Positions 37,788 through 47,015 of a stretch of DNA of 62,350 nucleotides are shown in pieces. Where the stretch lies: NCBI GenBank assembly GCA_030145325.1, contig JAQYVW010000011.1, positions 1 through 62,350 on the forward strand, given 5' to 3'. The first letter of the stretch is position 1; each line of letters opens with the position of its first letter. The stretch is from Desulfurivibrionaceae bacterium. Its GTDB lineage: Bacteria; Desulfobacterota; Desulfobulbia; Desulfobulbales; UBA5123. Made by a program: the position numbers and the translations under genes. Under the pieces are notes generated by a model. The model had not been told where the DNA came from. It saw nothing but the letters and a program-made list of their open reading frames with translations, and made no database searches.

Positions 37788-39101
37788 ATGAGTGATGTGC
37801 ATACTGGTAAAAAGGTAAAAATCGAGTTGGACGGCAAGACGTATGAGCTGCCGGTGGTCGAAGGATCGGAGGGAGAGCGGGCTATTGATATCCGTTCTTT
37901 GCGCGCCCAGACTGGTTACATTACCCTTGATTCTGGCTATATGAATACTGGCTCCTGTCGAAGTAATATTACTTTTCTGGATGGAGAGAAGGGCGTTCTC
38001 CAGTACCGTGGTTATGCCATTGATGAACTGGCCGAACATTGTACCTTTGTTGAGGTTGCCTATCTGTTGGTACATGGTGCCCTGCCCACTGCCGATCAGT
38101 TGCGGAATTTCAGTGAGATGCTTGGCCGTTTTGCCATGATTCATGAGGATATGGTTCATTTCTTTGATCGTTTCCCTCCTTACTCGTCGCCCATGTCCAT
38201 CCTTTCCACCATGGTCAACTCGCTCTGTAATTTCTACCCGGAGATGACCGAGAATCCGTTGGAAAATATCGATGCCATGGCTGCCCGGCTTCTTTCCAAG
38301 GTCCGAACCATTGCCGCTTTTTCCTATAAGAAGTCTTTGGGGCAACCGGTGGTTTATCCGCGCCATGATCTTTCCTATTGCGCTAATTTTATGAACATGA
38401 TGTTCGACTCACCGGTTGCGCCCTATGAGGTTAACGACAAGGTGGTGGCGGCCTTGAACAAGCTCTTGATCCTGCACGGCGATCATGAGCAGAACTGCTC
38501 TACTTCAACGGTGCGGTTGGTGGGCAGTGCCCGGGTTAATCTTTATGCCTCTATTTCTGCTGGCATCAGCGCTCTTTGGGGTCCTTTGCACGGCGGTGCT
38601 AATCAAGCGGTGATGGAGATGCTGGAGACCATTCATAGCGAAGGCGGTGGTTATCGGAAGTTTATTGAAAAGGCCAAGGATCCTAAAGATCCTTTCCGGC
38701 TGGTGGGCTTTGGCCACCGGGTCTACAAGACCCATGATCCTCGGTCGCGAATCCTCAAACAGGCTTGTGATGATGTTTTGGTCTCTTTGAATGTGGTTGA
38801 TGATCCTTTGCTGGAGATTGCCAAGGAACTTGAGGAGGTGGCTCTGCGGGATGAATACTTTATTGAGCGCAACCTCTATCCCAACGTGGATTTTTATAGT
38901 GGTATCATTTACCGAGCCATGGGTATCCCTTCCGACATGTTTACGGTGATGTTTGCTCTGGGCCGTTTGCCAGGCTGGATCGCGCACTGGATAGAGATGT
39001 GGAATGATCCTGATTCGCGGATCGGGCGGCCACGGCAGATATATGTCGGCCCGAAGTTGAAGCCGTTTGTACCTCTGGCGCAAAGAACCAGTGGTGAATG
39101 A
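37788..39101 (+). CDS. gltA: Citrate synthase
   Basis: 437 residues, type II (hexameric) length. The catalytic His regions are WGPLHGGANQAVMEML and VGFGHRVYKTHDPR, with the Asp in VDFYSGI. It joins acetyl-CoA and oxaloacetate. An upstream gap of 210 bp holds its promoter, and a strong terminator follows. Confidence 0.96.
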   Translation: MSDVHTGKKVKIELDGKTYELPVVEGSEGERAIDIRSLRAQTGYITLDSGYMNTGSCRSNITFLDGEKGVLQYRGYAIDELAEHCTFVEVAYLLVHGALPTADQLRNFSEMLGRFAMIHEDMVHFFDRFPPYSSPMSILSTMVNSLCNFYPEMTENPLENIDAMAARLLSKVRTIAAFSYKKSLGQPVVYPRHDLSYCANFMNMMFDSPVAPYEVNDKVVAALNKLLILHGDHEQNCSTSTVRLVGSARVNLYASISAGISALWGPLHGGANQAVMEMLETIHSEGGGYRKFIEKAKDPKDPFRLVGFGHRVYKTHDPRSRILKQACDDVLVSLNVVDDPLLEIAKELEEVALRDEYFIERNLYPNVDFYSGIIYRAMGIPSDMFTVMFALGRLPGWIAHWIEMWNDPDSRIGRPRQIYVGPKLKPFVPLAQRTSGE

Positions 39102-39130
39102 CAGTTCCTCACCCCATCGACTGAGCTACA

Positions 39131-39162
39131 GGCCGCTTCCTTTAGGTAGCGGCTTTTTTTTT
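39131..39162 (+). terminator. Intrinsic terminator of gltA
   Basis: GCCGCT, loop of about 10 nt, AGCGGC, then nine T. It lies 30 bp after the stop. Confidence 0.85.
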
Positions 39163-39303
39163 GTCGATAACTCGGGCGAGGTGGTTTGTCTCTGTGGGAA
39201 CTTTTGTTTCTCAATCGTAGTCGTGATATAATGAGGGTTCAAGTTCAAGATGGTTGGTTGCTTGGTTGCAGTGGTCATGGTTTATGTTGAAAAGAGGTAG
39301 GTA

Positions 39304-40278
39304 ATGGCTGGGATAAATACTCTCTTGTCGACAATTCCCGCCCCGAGGATGAGGGGTGGCGTTACTTCACCACCGGTTGTTGGTAGTCCTGAGCCGCAAG
39401 GTTCGGAGAGGGCACGAACCGGGATGGGGGGAGATACCTTTGCGCAGGGGCAATGGTGGAAGAATAGGGGTCAACCTGGCGGAAGTGAGCCTGGTGCCGG
39501 TGATTGGCAGGCGAAGGTTGCTTTGCGGGCTTATGGCGCGCAGCAGGGAAAAGGTTCGGTGGCAGGCGGTGGAGATGGTTCTCCAGATGCCGTGGCTGAT
39601 CCGGTTGCCGGAGGGAAGTCGGGAGAGGGGGGCGGCGAAGAAAAAGCGGTAGAGAAGAAAGGCGAAACATCGGAAGAGCAGGAGGTTGCTTCGTCTGGGG
39701 GGGAGTTGACTCCGGAGGAGCGGCAGATTGTTGCGCAATTACAGGTGACGGATACTCAAGTTCGCGCCCATGAGCAAGCCCATCTCGCCGCTGCTGGCGG
39801 CTATGCCACCAGTGGCGCTTCTTTTAGTTATCAAAGCGGGCCGGACGGCAGACGGTATGCCATTGGCGGTGAGGTGCAGATTGATACCTCCAGTGAGTCT
39901 GATCCTGAAAAAACCATTCGGAAGATGGGGGTAGTGCGGGCGGCGGCTTTGGCTCCAGCTAATCCGTCATCGCAGGATCGTAGCGTTGCGGCCACTGCTA
40001 CAACTAGAATTGTCGAAGCGCAGAGGGAGTTTCAAGCGATGCGGGCGGAAGAGGCCGAGCTAAGAAGTGCTGAGGCGGTGGCAAAGAGAGAAGAGGCGCA
40101 ACAGGAAGGATCTGAAGGTGATCGTTCTGGTGCGGCCGGTTCGCAAGGTGATGCGGCCGGGGGGGCTGGCGGCAGGGGCGGGCATGTGGCGATGCAGCGT
40201 TATGGTGAAAACGCAAATTCTGCCGGAAGTGGTAATCTTAACGGTGAAAAGCGGCTTGGGGTGAACCTTGCCGTGTAG
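39304..40278 (+). CDS. SprA-related / CJM1_0395-type putative metalloprotease
   Basis: 324 residues. The N-terminal ~135 are low-complexity, rich in Gly, Ser and charged residues. A core at about 135-250 has ELTPEERQIVAQLQ and the zinc-type RAHEQAHLAAAGGYATSG (HExxH). It continues DGRRYAIGGEVQIDTS and RAAALAPANPSSQD, as in PF12118 proteins. The substrate and location are unknown; there is no clear signal peptide. Confidence 0.8.
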   Translation: MAGINTLLSTIPAPRMRGGVTSPPVVGSPEPQGSERARTGMGGDTFAQGQWWKNRGQPGGSEPGAGDWQAKVALRAYGAQQGKGSVAGGGDGSPDAVADPVAGGKSGEGGGEEKAVEKKGETSEEQEVASSGGELTPEERQIVAQLQVTDTQVRAHEQAHLAAAGGYATSGASFSYQSGPDGRRYAIGGEVQIDTSSESDPEKTIRKMGVVRAAALAPANPSSQDRSVAATATTRIVEAQREFQAMRAEEAELRSAEAVAKREEAQQEGSEGDRSGAAGSQGDAAGGAGGRGGHVAMQRYGENANSAGSGNLNGEKRLGVNLAV

Positions 40279-40338
40279 TTTTGCTAATGGATGTTAGCGC
40301 CTAATCCCATCTTGCTGTCGATCCTTTTCTGGTTTTTT

Positions 40339-40542
40339 TCATAAACTCCCGCACATATCTTTGTAGTTGCTGCATTCGCGTTGATTGATGAATGGGCAGC
40401 TTTCTTTCCTGAACCACTGGAGCTTCGGGCACCAGTAGCGATCCTTGAAAGGCTCGTTGCAGCCAGTTGGGGTCAGTTGTTGGCGTTCAGTGCAGCCGTG
40501 TTTGACCATCTTGTTCTCGACGGTAAATTTCCAGAGTTTCAT
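40339..40542 (-). CDS. Small cysteine-rich protein
   Basis: 67 residues with six cysteines (HGCTERQQL, TGCNEPF, WCPKLQ, SCPFINQRECSNY, DMCGSL). GAGGAGG sits just before two adjacent ATG codons; the second (40542) has better spacing. Cysteine density and a strong ribosome site make it real. Possibly a metal-binding or disulfide-rich peptide; family unknown. Confidence 0.65.
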   Translation of the reverse strand: MKLWKFTVENKMVKHGCTERQQLTPTGCNEPFKDRYWCPKLQWFRKESCPFINQRECSNYKDMCGSL

Positions 40543-40771
40543 CATTAACCTCCTCGTCGGTAATGGTTCTGGGCTTGGCGCTGGCTGTCTGCGTCCTTAC
40601 TTACCTTATCGGCCCATGGCAGGAATTAATTAAGCGGTTGTTGACGAACCGCACTTGCTGTGGTACTTGGTATCCTTTTGTATTTGTTTACAAAGGCCCA
40701 TGAATCAGGCGGATAGATGTAGCGGTCGTCTTATCCTTGGGCGTTTTTTCATTCCTTTGGGAGTATATGAA

Positions 40772-42076
40772 ATGCGGACTGATATCGTACATATTGGTGC
40801 CGGGGAACTTACTTACGAGATTCGCAACATCGTTAATGTTGGCGAAAAACTCGAAAAGCTCGGAATCAAGGTTTATTGGGAGAATATTGGCGATCCCATC
40901 TATAAGGGAGAGGTGATCCCGGAATGGATGAAGGATATCGTTGCTGAGTATGTCAGGGATGACCTGACCTACGGTTACTGCCCTACCCGTGGTGTATTGT
41001 CCACCCGGCAGTTCATCGCCGAGCAGACCAATCAGCGTGGTGGCGCCCAGATCAGCCCCGAGGATATCCTTTTCTTTAATGGCCTGGGTGATGCGATCAG
41101 CAAGGTCTTCGGTTTCTTGAAACGGACGGCTCGGGTGGTGGTGCCCACTCCCAGTTACACCACTCATTCCTCTGCTGAGGCGGCCCATGCCGCCGACCGA
41201 CCAGTTTCCTATATGCTTGATCCCGACAATAATTGGTATCCAGATCTCGATGATTTGGAGAAGAGGATCAAGTACAACCACACCGTGGCGGGGATTTTAA
41301 TCATCAACCCGGATAATCCCACCGGTGCCGTCTATCCAGAGAAGATCCTGCGCGGAATGGTGGAGCTGGCCCGCAAATATGACCTGTTTATCATCTGTGA
41401 CGAGGTGTACCAGAATATCACTTATAACGGGCAACATTCTCTGCCGTTGTCCGATGTCATCGGCGATGTGCCGGGGATGGCCATGCGCGGTATCTCTAAG
41501 GAAATGCCTTGGCCCGGATCCCGTTGTGGCTGGATCGAGTTCTATAACGCGCATCGGGATCCGATGTTCGAACAATACATGAACTCGTTGCTCAATGCCA
41601 AAATGGTGGAGGTTTGCTCCACCACCTTGCCCCAGAAGGTGCTGCCGGCGGTGATCAGTCATCCTGAATATCCGGCCCATCTTCAGGAGCGCATCAAGCG
41701 GTATGAGAAATACTCAAATATCGCCTATGACGTGTTTAAAGAGGTAGATGGCCTGAAGGTGAATCGTACCAACGGCGCTTTCTATATGAGTATTGTTTTT
41801 GAGGAAGGGCGGGTCAACCACCAGCAAACCTTGCCCATAGATCTCAAAGAGGTTCGAGAGCATGTTGAATCGCTGGTGGGCGCTGCCAATGTGTCGCTGG
41901 ATAAACGGTTCGTCTATTACCTGCTGGGGGCCACCGGCGTTTGTGTGGTGCCGCTTTCTTCCTTTGCCACTGAATTACAGGGCTTCCGGATGACCTTGTT
42001 GGAGCGCGACGAGGAGCGGTTTCGGAAAATAGTCGGCATCATCGCCGAGGCCATTAATCAGTACCTCGCCTCGTAA
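40772..42076 (+). CDS. PLP-dependent aminotransferase, class I/II
   Basis: 434 residues from ATG 40772 (MRTDIVHIGAGELTYEIR), with GGAG upstream; the longer frame adds a non-conserved hydrophobic stretch. Fold type I features: NPDNPTGAVYPE, IICDEVYQNITYNG and the PLP lysine in RGISKEMPWPGSRCGWIEF. Probably an amino acid-keto acid transaminase; the exact substrate cannot be told from the sequence. Confidence 0.88.
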   Translation: MRTDIVHIGAGELTYEIRNIVNVGEKLEKLGIKVYWENIGDPIYKGEVIPEWMKDIVAEYVRDDLTYGYCPTRGVLSTRQFIAEQTNQRGGAQISPEDILFFNGLGDAISKVFGFLKRTARVVVPTPSYTTHSSAEAAHAADRPVSYMLDPDNNWYPDLDDLEKRIKYNHTVAGILIINPDNPTGAVYPEKILRGMVELARKYDLFIICDEVYQNITYNGQHSLPLSDVIGDVPGMAMRGISKEMPWPGSRCGWIEFYNAHRDPMFEQYMNSLLNAKMVEVCSTTLPQKVLPAVISHPEYPAHLQERIKRYEKYSNIAYDVFKEVDGLKVNRTNGAFYMSIVFEEGRVNHQQTLPIDLKEVREHVESLVGAANVSLDKRFVYYLLGATGVCVVPLSSFATELQGFRMTLLERDEERFRKIVGIIAEAINQYLAS

Positions 42077-42099
42077 TCTTCCTCTTTCTCTGTAGACGT

Positions 42100-42136
42100 A
42101 AAAAAGCCCCTGCCTGTTGGTAAGGGGCTTTTTTTT
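42100..42136. terminator. Bidirectional terminator
   Basis: AAAAAAGCCCCTGCC, short loop, GGTAAGGGGCTTTTTTTT. It is shared by the aminotransferase and the convergent carbonic-anhydrase-like gene. Confidence 0.85.
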
Positions 42137-42157
42137 GTGTCATGGCGGTGGGGTAGT

Positions 42158-42970
42158 TTATTTGCTGCCGCCTTTCTTGCGCAGGGGGCGAAAGCGACCG
42201 ATATGGGTATTGATTAATTTCTGTTGCAGACGGTTCATCAATCGTAACCGTTTGATCTTGCTGTCCTTTCGTTCGTTGTTGACATTGGTGATGATCAGGC
42301 ATCCGGGGCCGCGGGCATAGAGATTGGCAAGATCGATGATCCCTCCCACCACCACCAGGCGTCCACCGTGGATCCGTTCTTGATACCGTTGTACCGCTTG
42401 CTCTACTTGGAAATCGACATTGGCTTCGGCAGTGCGGAGCAGTTGTTCGGTGGGGTTCGGATTTTTGCTGTTTTTACCCTGCGGGGCGGGATGGGCAAGG
42501 GGGAGGTGGAGATGGTCCAAGTCTTTACGGATGGAGCCGTCCATGTCCTGATAACCTTCCTTGAAGAGACGAATGGCCAGGCTGTCGGTGCTGCCGGTGA
42601 TTAGGAGGATGGGGGTGTGCAGGTGGCGGACTCCGAAATCAATGCTCCCCAATGAGGTTGCCAGTTGATTACCAAGGTTGCGGATGGTGTAGATTGGTTT
42701 CCCTGGAGCGTTAAGGATCAGCCGTTCTTCCAGGCGGGCGTCGGCGTCGGTTAGCCAGGTCAGGTAGGGGGTCTTGAGTTCGGTGAGGTCAGTGTTGGCC
42801 TTAATCTTGTTGGCAAACTGTTGGTTGGTGGTGAGAACCTTTTCCATAACCTCAAATGGTGGCAGTCCGGCCCGGAGTTTGCGCACGGGCTGCATTTCGG
42901 CAGCGCTGCTGGTGACTTGTCCGGCAAGGATACAAAAAGTGAGTAAAAATAAGAAAAAATTTCTGGGCAT
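42158..42970 (-). CDS. Secreted beta-carbonic-anhydrase homologue lacking zinc ligands
   Basis: 270 residues with an N-terminal signal peptide (MPRNFFLFLLTFCILAGQVTSSAA). The body follows beta-CA order: LTDADARLEERLIL where CxDSRxxPExI is expected, YTIRNLGNQLATSLGSIDFGVRHL matching VIRNAGN...SLEYAVEHL, and PILLITGSTDSLAIR where the HxxCG zinc site should be. Later EANVDFQVEQAVQRYQERIHGGRLVVVGGIIDL matches the EANV/GRL-VVGAxYDL helix-strand. Both cysteines and the histidine ligand are missing, but the D-x-R pair is kept. It is probably not a carbonic anhydrase; role unknown. Confidence 0.75.
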   Translation of the reverse strand: MPRNFFLFLLTFCILAGQVTSSAAEMQPVRKLRAGLPPFEVMEKVLTTNQQFANKIKANTDLTELKTPYLTWLTDADARLEERLILNAPGKPIYTIRNLGNQLATSLGSIDFGVRHLHTPILLITGSTDSLAIRLFKEGYQDMDGSIRKDLDHLHLPLAHPAPQGKNSKNPNPTEQLLRTAEANVDFQVEQAVQRYQERIHGGRLVVVGGIIDLANLYARGPGCLIITNVNNERKDSKIKRLRLMNRLQQKLINTHIGRFRPLRKKGGSK

Positions 42971-43089
42971 GACCTCTCTCCGCTGACGACAAAATGACGG
43001 TTACCCCGTTGTTTTGACGGGTTTTTTTGCGTGAATTCAGCCCCCAGAGTACCAGACTCAACACCGGCGGTCAAATGCCGGTTGGTGAC

Positions 43090-43118
43090 TTGACAACGAA
43101 AAGGTGCATACTTATTGT
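43090..43118 (+). promoter_or_regulatory. Sigma-70-type promoter for grpE-dnaK
   Basis: TTGACA (43090-43095), 17 bp, TATTGT (43113-43118), about 157 bp before grpE. No CIRCE repeat or clear sigma-32 site is seen. A hairpin with T-run (about 43002-43026) lies upstream and would insulate it. The rest of the 305-bp gap shows nothing else. Confidence 0.5.
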
Positions 43119-43274
43119 TCCTCTCAATTGCGAAATAAACCACCTCTGCCGGGTACGCCGCAAGCTTGTTGGGACGGTGGAACTCGTTGTCAGGTGGCGA
43201 AAATTGAAAATGATCACTGCGCGATGTGACCGGCAGTGATGGCAGAGAATATTTCTTATCTTCAGGAGGAGTCG

Positions 43275-43871
43275 GTGACAAAAAAATCCAAAGGCAAGGC
43301 GGAGACGCCTGCCGAGGTAGATACCACAGCAGCAGAAACGGCGGCGGTTGAGCTGGAAGTTGATGCGGAAGGGGAGGCCACGGTAACGGCTGATGATACG
43401 GTGGACGAAACCTCCAAGCTTGCCGAAGAATTGGCAACGGCTCGGGCGGAAGCTGATGAAAGCCGAGACAAGATGTTGCGGATGGCAGCTGAACTGGAAA
43501 ATTTCAAGAAACGTACTGCCCGAGAGAAAGAGACTTCTCTGCGGTATGCTGAAGAGAATATTCTCAAGGAATTGCTTCCCACCCTGGACAATCTGGAGAT
43601 GGCAGTTCAGCAGGGGCAAGGCGGCGAGAATGGTAATGCCCTGCTGGAGGGGGTTGAGATGACCATCAAGGGTTTACGGACCTGTCTTGAGAAATTTGGA
43701 CTACAAGCCATCGAGAGTGTGGGGCAGGTTTTTGATCCCAATTTTCATGAGGCCCTGGCCATGGAGGCCAGCGAAGAGTTTGAGAATAATACTGTCCTTA
43801 AGGAATTTCAAAAGGGATATATGTACAAGGAACGTTTGCTGCGGGCGGCCAAGGTTATCGTTGTCGGCTGA
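43275..43871 (+). CDS. grpE: GrpE, DnaK nucleotide exchange factor
   Basis: 198 residues from GTG 43275, which follows AGGAGGAG; upstream in-frame starts lack a ribosome site. An acidic N-terminal tail, long helix (MAAELENFKKRTAREKETSLRYA), then VGQVFDPNFHEAL and GYMYKERLLRAAKVIV at the end, as in the family. Directly upstream of dnaK. Confidence 0.95.
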   Translation: MTKKSKGKAETPAEVDTTAAETAAVELEVDAEGEATVTADDTVDETSKLAEELATARAEADESRDKMLRMAAELENFKKRTAREKETSLRYAEENILKELLPTLDNLEMAVQQGQGGENGNALLEGVEMTIKGLRTCLEKFGLQAIESVGQVFDPNFHEALAMEASEEFENNTVLKEFQKGYMYKERLLRAAKVIVVG

Positions 43872-43931
43872 GGCATAGGCCCTGAAAAAAATTATTTTAT
43901 CCAGAACTAATCTGTATAAGGAGAATATGGA

Positions 43932-45839
43932 ATGAGCAAGATTATCGGAATAGATTTAGGAACCACCAATTCATGTGTGTCGATCATGGAAGGCGGCGAG
44001 CCCAAGGTTATCGCCAATGTCGAAGGCAACCGCACCACCCCGTCCATTGTTGCTTTTAATGATAGTGGTGAGCGGCTGGTAGGCCAGGTTGCTAAACGGC
44101 AGGCGGTTACCAATCCCACCAAGACCCTGCACGCCATCAAGCGTCTTATTGGTCGGAAATTCACCGATGCCGAGGTCAAGAAGAGTCTTGAAGTGAGCCC
44201 CTTTCCCATTGTTGAGGGCAAGGGCGGTGACGCGGCGGTTGAGGTGGATGGTAAGGCTTACACCCCTGCCGAGATTTCTGCCATGACCTTGACCAAGATG
44301 AAGCAGACTGCCGAGGAGTATCTTGGCGAAGCGGTTACCGAAGCGGTAATCACCGTTCCGGCCTATTTTAATGATAGCCAGCGTCAGGCCACCAAGGATG
44401 CCGGTCGGATTGCCGGTTTGAACGTGCAACGGATCATCAACGAGCCCACTGCCGCCTCTTTGGCCTACGGTCTCGACAAGAAAGGCGAGGAGAAGATTGC
44501 GGTCTTCGATCTTGGCGGCGGCACCTTTGATGTTTCCATCCTTGAGATCGGCGATGGTGTTTTTGAGGTCAAGTCCACCAATGGCGACACCTTTCTCGGC
44601 GGCGAAGACTTTGATATGCGCATCGTTAACTGGCTGGCCGACGAGTTCAAGCGTGAGCAGGGTATTGACTTGCGCACCGACAAGATGGCCTTGCAGCGTT
44701 TGAAGGAAGAGGGCGAGAAGGCCAAGATGGAGCTGTCCACCACCATGGAAAGTGAGATCAACTTGCCCTTCATCACCGCCGACGCTTCCGGGCCTAAGCA
44801 TCTCAATGTTAAACTTAGCCGGGCCAAGTACGAGACCCTGGTTGCTGATCTGGTGGAACGCACCATCGGGCCTTGTAAAACCGCCCTCAAGGACGCTGGT
44901 CTTACTGCTGCCGAGATTGATGAGGTTATTCTGGTGGGCGGCATGAGCCGGATGCCCAAGGTCCAGGAGAAGGTCAAGGAGATCTTCGGTAAGGAACCTC
45001 ATAAGGGGGTGAATCCTGATGAAGTGGTGGCCATCGGCGCCGCCATTCAGGGCGGAGTATTGAAGGGTGATGTTAAAGATGTTCTTCTCCTCGATGTTAC
45101 CCCACTTTCTCTGGGAATCGAAACCTTGGGCGGAGTTTTTACCAAGCTCATTGAGAAGAACACCACTGTCCCCACCAAGAAGAGTCAGGTCTTCTCCACC
45201 GCGGCCGACAATCAGCCGGCGGTATCCATCCACGTTCTGCAGGGTGAGCGCGAGATGTCTTCCGGTAACAAGTCCATCGGTCGTTTTGATCTTGCCGATA
45301 TCCCGCCTGCACCGCGCGGAGTGCCGCAGGTTGAGGTAACCTTTGATCTCGATGCCAACGGCATCTTGCATGTTTCTGCTAAGGATCTTGGCACTGGCAA
45401 GGAGCAATCAATCAAGATTACCGCCTCCAGCGGTTTGTCCGAGGATGAGATTCAGCAGATGCAGCGCGATGCCGAGTCCCACGCCGAGGAAGACAAGAAA
45501 CGTAAAGAGCTGGTGGAAACCAAGAATCAGGCCGACTCCCTGGTGTATGCCACCGAGAAGAGCTTGAAGGATTTGGGCGATAAGGTTGATGCCGAGACCA
45601 AGTCCAATGTCGAGCGCGAGATCGAGAATGTCAAGAAGGTCATGGAAGGAGACGACGTTGAGGCCATGAAGGCGGCGGTTGAGGCCCTGACCCAGGCTTC
45701 CCATAAGCTGGCTGAGATGATGTACAGCCAGGCCAGTCAGGATCAAGCCGCGCCGGGTGCTGATGCTGGTGGCGACGCCGGAGCCAAGAAGGATGACGAC
45801 GACGTGGTTGATGCTGACTTCGAGGAGGTCAAAGAGTAA
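43932..45839 (+). CDS. dnaK: Chaperone DnaK (Hsp70)
   Basis: 635 residues. The N-terminal ATPase domain has [18 protein letters not shown] and [15 protein letters not shown]. The linker is [14 protein letters not shown], followed by the substrate-binding domain and an acidic tail ending [15 protein letters not shown]. In an operon with grpE; dnaJ is not adjacent. Confidence 0.98.
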
Positions 45840-45865
45840 ATTTCCTTTGAATTTCTGCATGGGAA

Positions 45866-45897
45866 GGGGAGTGGGAGAAATCCTGCTCCCTTTTTTT
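45866..45897 (+). terminator. Terminator of grpE-dnaK
   Basis: GGGAGTGGGA, GAAA loop, TCCTGCTCCC, then seven T. Some internal mismatches. Confidence 0.7.
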
Positions 45898-46010
45898 GTC
45901 CTTTTGTTTCTGCGGGGGCGGGGGAGAAAAGCCTTGCTCTCGGGCCGTTTTTTTTTTAAACACAGTGAGCAGTGAACAAGCCGTAAAATATCAAAAGAAC
46001 GGGAAAAATT

Positions 46011-46976
46011 ATGAGAATCTTGTCAGGTATTCAGCCCTCTGGGCAACTGCACATCGGCAACTACTTCGGGATGATGAAGCCGATGATTGCCAATATGGAT
46101 CAGAGCGAGTTGTACGCCTTTATTGTTGACCTGCACGCCCTTACCTCCGTACAGGATCGAGCAACCCTCGCTCAAGGTACTCTGGAGGCGGCTGCTGATT
46201 TTATTGCCCTGGGTCTTGACCCTGAGAAATGTTTGTTTTGGGTGCAGTCTGATCTTCCCGAGGTCACTGAGTTGGCCTGGGTCTTGTCTTCTCTTACCCC
46301 CATGGGCTTGCTGGAGCGGTGCCACTCCTATAAAGATAAGGTGGCCAAGGGCATTGCCCCCAGTCATGGTCTCTTCGCCTATCCGGTGTTGATGGCTGCT
46401 GATATCCTTCTTTTTCAGGCTGAGCGGGTGCCGGTGGGCAAGGATCAGAAGCAGCATCTGGAGGTGGCCCGCGATATCGCCATCAAGTTCAACAATACCT
46501 TTGGTGAGACCTTTACGGTGCCGGAGCCGGTGATTGATGCCAATGTTGCCACCGTACCGGGCGTAGATGGCCAGAAGATGTCCAAATCCTATGGCAACAC
46601 CATCCCCATCTTTAGCGATGCCAAAACCCTTAAAAAACGGGTGATGGCCATCGTCACCGATGCCACCCCAGTGGAAGACCCCAAGGATCCAGATAAGTGC
46701 CATCTGTATAGTATCTACAAGCTCTTTGCTCCCGCAGAACGGTTGCAGGAGGTGCATGATCTCTACGTCAACGGCGGGGCCATGTACGGCAAGATCAAGC
46801 TGGAACTGGTGGATTTGCTCTGGGAGTATTTCCGTGAGGCGCGTGAGAAAAAACAGCAATTGCTTGCGGAACCTGAGCAACTGCGGGCCATTCTCAAACA
46901 AGGGGCGGAAAAGGCTCGTACCAAAGCCATTCTCACTCTTGATTTGGTTCGAGAGCGGGTTGGGCTTAAATACTGA
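46011..46976 (+). CDS. trpS: Tryptophanyl-tRNA synthetase
   Basis: 321 residues. Class I signatures: SGIQPSGQLHIGNYFGM (HIGH type) and KMSKSYGNTI. The length and the FVQSD-like FWVQSDLPEVTELAWVLS segment are usual for bacterial TrpS. Forty bases before cysC. Confidence 0.97.
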   Translation: MRILSGIQPSGQLHIGNYFGMMKPMIANMDQSELYAFIVDLHALTSVQDRATLAQGTLEAAADFIALGLDPEKCLFWVQSDLPEVTELAWVLSSLTPMGLLERCHSYKDKVAKGIAPSHGLFAYPVLMAADILLFQAERVPVGKDQKQHLEVARDIAIKFNNTFGETFTVPEPVIDANVATVPGVDGQKMSKSYGNTIPIFSDAKTLKKRVMAIVTDATPVEDPKDPDKCHLYSIYKLFAPAERLQEVHDLYVNGGAMYGKIKLELVDLLWEYFREAREKKQQLLAEPEQLRAILKQGAEKARTKAILTLDLVRERVGLKY

Positions 46977-47015
46977 GAGGTTTCGTCCTCTGCAAGGACG
47001 AACGAAAGATATTTC

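Follow-up and report, generated by a model that had tools for sequence, protein, structure and literature searches.

A maintained, predicted exported protein of the beta-carbonic anhydrase fold without zinc ligands in an order of sulfur-cycling bacteria

Catalysis by the beta-class carbonic anhydrases (CAs) requires a zinc-bound hydroxide. In the enzymes of H. influenzae and E. coli, bicarbonate also occupies a non-catalytic pocket formed by Trp39, Gly41, Val47, Arg64 and Tyr181, ~8 A from the zinc (PMC3230598). Several relatives of CAs that lack the usual metal chemistry have been described. The C-terminal domain of CsoSCA, the alpha-carboxysome protein, is a beta-CA domain devoid of zinc-binding residues that is retained beside an active one (PMC10614612), the alpha-class CA-related proteins (CARPs) VIII, X and XI are acatalytic (PMC3907363), and the COG4337/iota-type CA hydrates CO2 without a metal (PMC8132391). 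In the open-access literature searched, no free-standing, exported pseudoenzyme turned up among the bacterial beta-CAs, nor did any account of the family presented here.

The window analysed here, the whole stretch of 62,350 nucleotides, contains at 42158..42970 a gene recognized from its open reading frame, a PF00484 match and its orthologues. It lies on the minus strand, which the first-pass annotation did not give, with the ATG at 42970 and the stop at 42158-42160, and encodes 270 aa, the stop codon being included in the coordinates. Its product is very probably a maintained, exported, zinc-less protein of the beta-CA fold. Export had been proposed from a signal peptide and, read by eye, the N-terminus (MPRN + FFLFLLTFCILAGQV + TSSAA/E) has the short basic start, hydrophobic stretch and S-A-A/E of a Sec-type peptide, predicted to cover residues 1-24 (42899..42970, minus strand) with cleavage before E25. 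In the relatives, where such a peptide is likewise read by eye, the consensus ends in A-x-A/EM, and residues 3-17 of the window protein form a helix in the AlphaFold2 model.

An SD-like GGAGAG is located just 5' of the ATG, and a candidate sigma-70-type promoter (TTGACC-17-TACTCT; 43046..43074, minus strand) is kept in two same-genus genomes. Across the family, 35 of 54 upstream regions contain a sigma-70-type match of at least 8/12, compared with a mean of 19.7 and a maximum of 27 for shuffled regions; promoter-like sites of these genes exceed chance. A near-identical block, AAAATTTTAGACAT...TTCACCGATAATG, was observed at about -55 upstream in loci L018, L019, L071, L075, L116-L118, L120, L122, L126, L127 and L129, where it is better conserved than the flanking DNA; it is probably a promoter, perhaps combined with an operator. 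Control by the flagellar sigma-28 was considered, with CCGATA[AT] lying upstream of 20 of the 54 genes (shuffled mean 2), and was rejected: the -35 boxes do not fit the sigma-28 spacing, and most of the sites fall in one family and resemble a -10 box (GATAAT). No Rfam match was obtained in 38000-47000, and a 225-aa ORF in another frame (42760-43437, minus strand), which overlaps the start of the zinc-less gene and grpE, shows no sign of being a gene.

The divergent neighbour is grpE (43236..43871, plus strand), identified by conserved association and Pfam and followed by dnaK (43932-45839, plus strand; Pfam). In addition to the window, the head-to-head arrangement with grpE-dnaK is found in 31 of 35 named loci, either directly or, at some of them, via a small ORF that is probably spurious; the exceptions are L118, which reaches a contig end, L119, L124 and L130. 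In one genome group the genes beyond both ends are swapped and the grpE pairing is retained. The neighbours confirmed by Pfam are GrpE, DnaK, a class I/II aminotransferase past the stop, an SprA-related protein and a tRNA synthetase (W/Y type). Heat-shock co-regulation with grpE-dnaK was rejected. No CIRCE element was detected in any upstream region, and each side apparently uses a separate sigma-70-like promoter, so the linkage is taken as positional.

The first-pass annotation had recognized the beta-CA pattern, and IRNLGN, SLGSIDFGVRHL, EANV and GRLVVVGGIIDL are indeed all present. Pro_CA (PF00484) is the sole Pfam-A family above its cut-off (E 6.9e-11, 43.1 bits, cut-off 25.7), the domain covering residues 71-215 (42326..42760, minus strand) according to the Pfam and fold matches, whereas no NCBIfam family scores above cut-off. 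The same Pfam family is matched by 23 of 26 zinc-less members at E<=0.001. An AlphaFold2 model obtained from a mixed 44-row alignment (mean pLDDT 87.5, pTM 0.79) gave Candida Nce103p (6gwu_C) as the best Foldseek match in the PDB (E 4.9e-11), all 50 listed matches being beta-CAs, and VIA-align of the model yielded a Z of 18.5 over 188 residues with an rmsd of 3.3 A. As a control, a model was built from 26 rows of zinc-less sequences alone, with no canonical CA (pLDDT 80.2); all its listed PDB matches were again beta-CAs (best Foldseek E 3.3e-10). The predicted beta-CA fold is strongly supported, and the structure prediction suggested in the first-pass annotation pointed to beta-CAs with both models.

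To define the changes at the zinc site, we compared 55 distinct zinc-less sequences, 54 of them readable at this site, with 33 zinc-intact ones. None of the three Cys-His-Cys ligands is present in any of the 54, whereas all three are found in 33/33 zinc-intact relatives. The first Cys is replaced by D75 (42746..42748, minus strand; alignment and hhalign), a position occupied by Asp in 52, Glu in 1 and Pro in 1 of the 54 members. At the position of the His, S127 (42590..42592, minus strand, by alignment) corresponds to Asn in 43, Ser in 4 and Gln in 3, and at the second Cys, S130 (42581..42583, minus strand, by alignment) corresponds to Ser in 38 and Asn in 14. The Asp-Arg dyad D77-x-R79 (42734..42742, minus strand) is retained, with Asp in 52/54 and Arg in 47/54; a few members depart at D77 or D75 (families f2 and f11). 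An hhalign comparison of the zinc-less and zinc-intact family profiles gave the same placement of the ligand-site residues. The loss of the ligands with retention of D-x-R, as first claimed, is therefore borne out across the family. Moreover, the best His column elsewhere in the family alignment reaches 58% and the best Cys column 34% (weighted counts), which indicates that there are no other conserved zinc ligands. Judged from these alignments, the protein is not a zinc CA, its Cys/His ligands being gone and none substituted.

The same comparison points to a zinc site that is not only lost, as the first-pass annotation had it, but rebuilt, the ligands having given way to specific residues that are almost all oxygen or amide donors. 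Among 234 positions, D77 ranks 10th and D75 30th in conservation, and T125, T128 and Q102 are conserved around the rebuilt pocket positions. A total of 24 columns are invariant across 26 divergent zinc-less members. When compared with the zinc-intact relatives, W72, T125, R199, R204 and K31-G35-P37-P38, the last belonging to a K-x-R-A-G-x-P-P stretch just past the signal peptide, are invariant in this family only. The four former ligand positions, now Asp, Asp, Asn/Ser/Gln and Ser/Asn, could accommodate a hard metal, so that the metal-free state assumed in the first-pass annotation is only one possibility.

Orthologues are 72-74% identical in two same-genus genomes and ~40-47% identical in many families of the order, far beyond chance. 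A search for homologues with the same losses had been suggested, and a zinc-less profile run against 258 genomes of the class detected 61 full-length loci above 260 bits, clearly separated from the zinc-intact paralogues (<=188 bits). At least 55 distinct zinc-less orthologues occur in one bacterial order (Desulfobulbaceae/Desulfurivibrio relatives), which from its named members we infer to be the Desulfobulbales. Among these 258 genomes, families f1, f3, f5-f11 (though not all genera) and f15 carry the zinc-less type, f2 has an eroded form of it, and none was seen in f4, f12, f13 or f14. A search of 395 genomes from the phylum gave, beyond the order, hits above E 1e-20 that proved without exception zinc-intact where read. 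Scanning contigs with the family pattern gave 35 loci, assigned to Desulfobulbaceae, Desulfurivibrio, Ca. Desulfobia, unclassified Delta-/Proteobacteria MAGs and one 'Geobacter' MAG; a contig scan with the single window protein as query found nothing, and viral contigs yielded one contig-edge fragment only. The 'Geobacter sp. UBA5608' locus (L109, contig DIKW01000072.1) lies within the Desulfurivibrio-like group in the tree, and this MAG is probably misnamed or mixed.

In a maximum-likelihood tree from which the ligand columns had been left out, one branch (SH-aLRT 83) separates the zinc-less proteins from the others; this topology, in a tree with some long branches, is consistent with a single apparent loss of the zinc ligands. 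Pairwise dN/dS, estimated by a simple counting method where dS was unsaturated, ranges from 0.13 to 0.27, and the gene is under purifying selection. With orthologues sharing the same losses and a conserved genomic position, these values uphold the earlier view of a maintained family member. The f2 loci (L030:647-1324 and L043:4012-4680) are shortened and have also lost D77 and R79 while keeping the C-terminal N-x-N-G, possibly through further drift or a second functional change. Finally, two differing zinc-less copies occur in one genome bin (G236:C178 and C11; L115 and L118), either from gene duplication or because the bin is mixed.

Our preferred reading, at a probability of about 0.4, is an exported pseudoenzyme with a small ligand bound in the rebuilt pocket; a structural protein, an oxyanion binder and an unusual enzyme rank below it. 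The protein, predicted to be periplasmic, would derive from an exported zinc beta-CA through one apparent loss event, and its old zinc pocket, remodelled as a conserved oxygen-donor site (D75, the D77-R79 pair, N/S127, S/N130) whose geometry is deduced from alignment to known beta-CAs, would hold a hard divalent cation or some small polar molecule. The strong constraint on this pocket, with new letters, argues for a site in use rather than a filled hole, and its two acidic residues make an anion a poorer candidate than a cation or a neutral molecule that forms hydrogen bonds. Against this reading, the window protein has Ser and not Asn at position 127, and a few members (f2, f11) lack D77 or D75.

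It is possible, although somewhat unlikely, that the protein is structural, the beta-CA dimer/tetramer fold serving as a periplasmic platform for protein contacts and the polar residues filling the metal hole. W72, Y218, N231, R199, R204 and the N-terminal K-x-R-A-G-x-P-P may function in oligomerisation or protein contact instead of ligand binding. Family-only conservation outside the pocket (K31/G35/P37/P38, R195/Y196/R199/R204 and Y218) is in accordance with this proposal, as is the zinc-less beta-CA domain that CsoSCA keeps beside its active one (PMC10614612). However, a mere plug would hardly be expected to fix Asp at the first Cys position in 52/54 members and keep the Asp-Arg dyad. Moreover, G007 (one contig, 100% complete), G029, G020, G009 and G035 have no PF00484 hit besides the zinc-less protein; it is thus generally no subunit of another beta-CA, which excludes a fixed beta-CA partner as a general rule, and a role as general partner or regulatory subunit of a zinc beta-CA was rejected.

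The first-pass annotation had suggested that a small anion could be bound. The two acidic residues speak against this at the old zinc site, and the idea fits better at the non-catalytic bicarbonate pocket, through which the protein would bind or sense bicarbonate or another oxyanion. W72 (42755..42757, minus strand) aligns with Trp39 of the H. influenzae enzyme (PMC3230598) and is invariant in the zinc-less family, whereas zinc-intact relatives have V/L/I/M; the counterpart of Val47 is L80 (V/I/L in the family), and that of Arg64, counted from the alignment, is R97, present in 49/54 members. By alignment, three of the five pocket residues therefore have counterparts, while two are missing: the Tyr181 position, also counted from the alignment, is I/L in nearly all zinc-less members and Tyr in 33/33 zinc-intact ones, and the Gly41 position is Ala/Thr. 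We consider an oxyanion binder or sensor rather improbable.

More doubtful still is an unusual CA, or a related hydratase or hydrolase, that would do without a metal or use one other than zinc, bound by Asp/Asp/Asn/Ser. All four positions that surround the zinc in beta-CAs (Cys, Asp, His and Cys) carry oxygen or amide donors in this family, the active-site companions D77-R79 and Q102 are retained, several genomes lack any other PF00484 gene, and metal-free CO2 hydration has a precedent in the COG4337/iota-type CA (PMC8132391). However, the iota-CA fold differs, beta-CA catalysis relies on zinc-bound hydroxide, and two acids at the metal site disfavour bicarbonate. In the window's genome, moreover, the activity is not missing, since it encodes two zinc-intact PF00484 proteins, C50, presumed to be cytosolic as its searched match has no obvious signal peptide, and C94, which is exported. 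A functionless, decaying gene, as the lost ligands and the further eroded f2 members might suggest, is very improbable given the low dN/dS, intact frames in dozens of genomes, promoter-like sites above chance and the 24 invariant columns.

An old enzyme fold thus seems to have been redeployed for another use, and a whole order of sulfur-cycling bacteria retains a CA look-alike, predicted to be exported, at nearly the same genome spot. It appears unlikely, if far-reaching, that the zinc site was converted once, order-wide, to an oxygen-donor site with a hard metal or none, giving an exported enzyme or binder with a chemistry new for the fold. With one apparent origin, orthologues by the dozen, zinc-intact paralogues for comparison and precisely defined replacements, this family offers a clean case of how a zinc enzyme fold is re-used. 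Furthermore, its members score above the Pro_CA cut-off and will be miscounted as CAs by automatic annotation when the inorganic-carbon metabolism of these sulfur bacteria is reconstructed.

Among zinc-intact proteins, the exported paralogue (G000:C94, L031) resembles the zinc-less protein in having a predicted signal peptide and over its full length, including the C-terminal D-x-x-N-x-Y-G-x-G...N-x-N-G-E, and hhalign relates the two with 100% probability (E 4.6e-50, 30% identity). It differs in having C-x-D-S-R and H-x-x-C-G in 14/14 aligned members, V/L/I/M at W72 and a His-rich mature N-terminus, and neither grpE nor dnaK was found beside it. In L031:4697-5485 and its relatives this N-terminus is His/Gly-rich (HGGGHG type) in most members, possibly a zinc-acquiring tail. 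With the canonical beta-CAs (HICA, E. coli YadF and Candida Nce103p, 6gwu) the zinc-less protein shares the predicted fold, the Asp-Arg dyad and a Gln near the active site, and departs from them in Cys-His-Cys, which has become Asp-Asn/Ser-Ser/Asn, and in the Tyr181 equivalent, now Ile/Leu. The CARPs VIII, X and XI belong to an unrelated fold class and occur in animals, and the iota-type CA is an unrelated cone-shaped barrel with different residues. In CsoSCA the zinc-less domain is one of the duplicated halves of an active, single-chain enzyme inside the carboxysome, whereas the protein described here is free-standing and, as predicted, exported.
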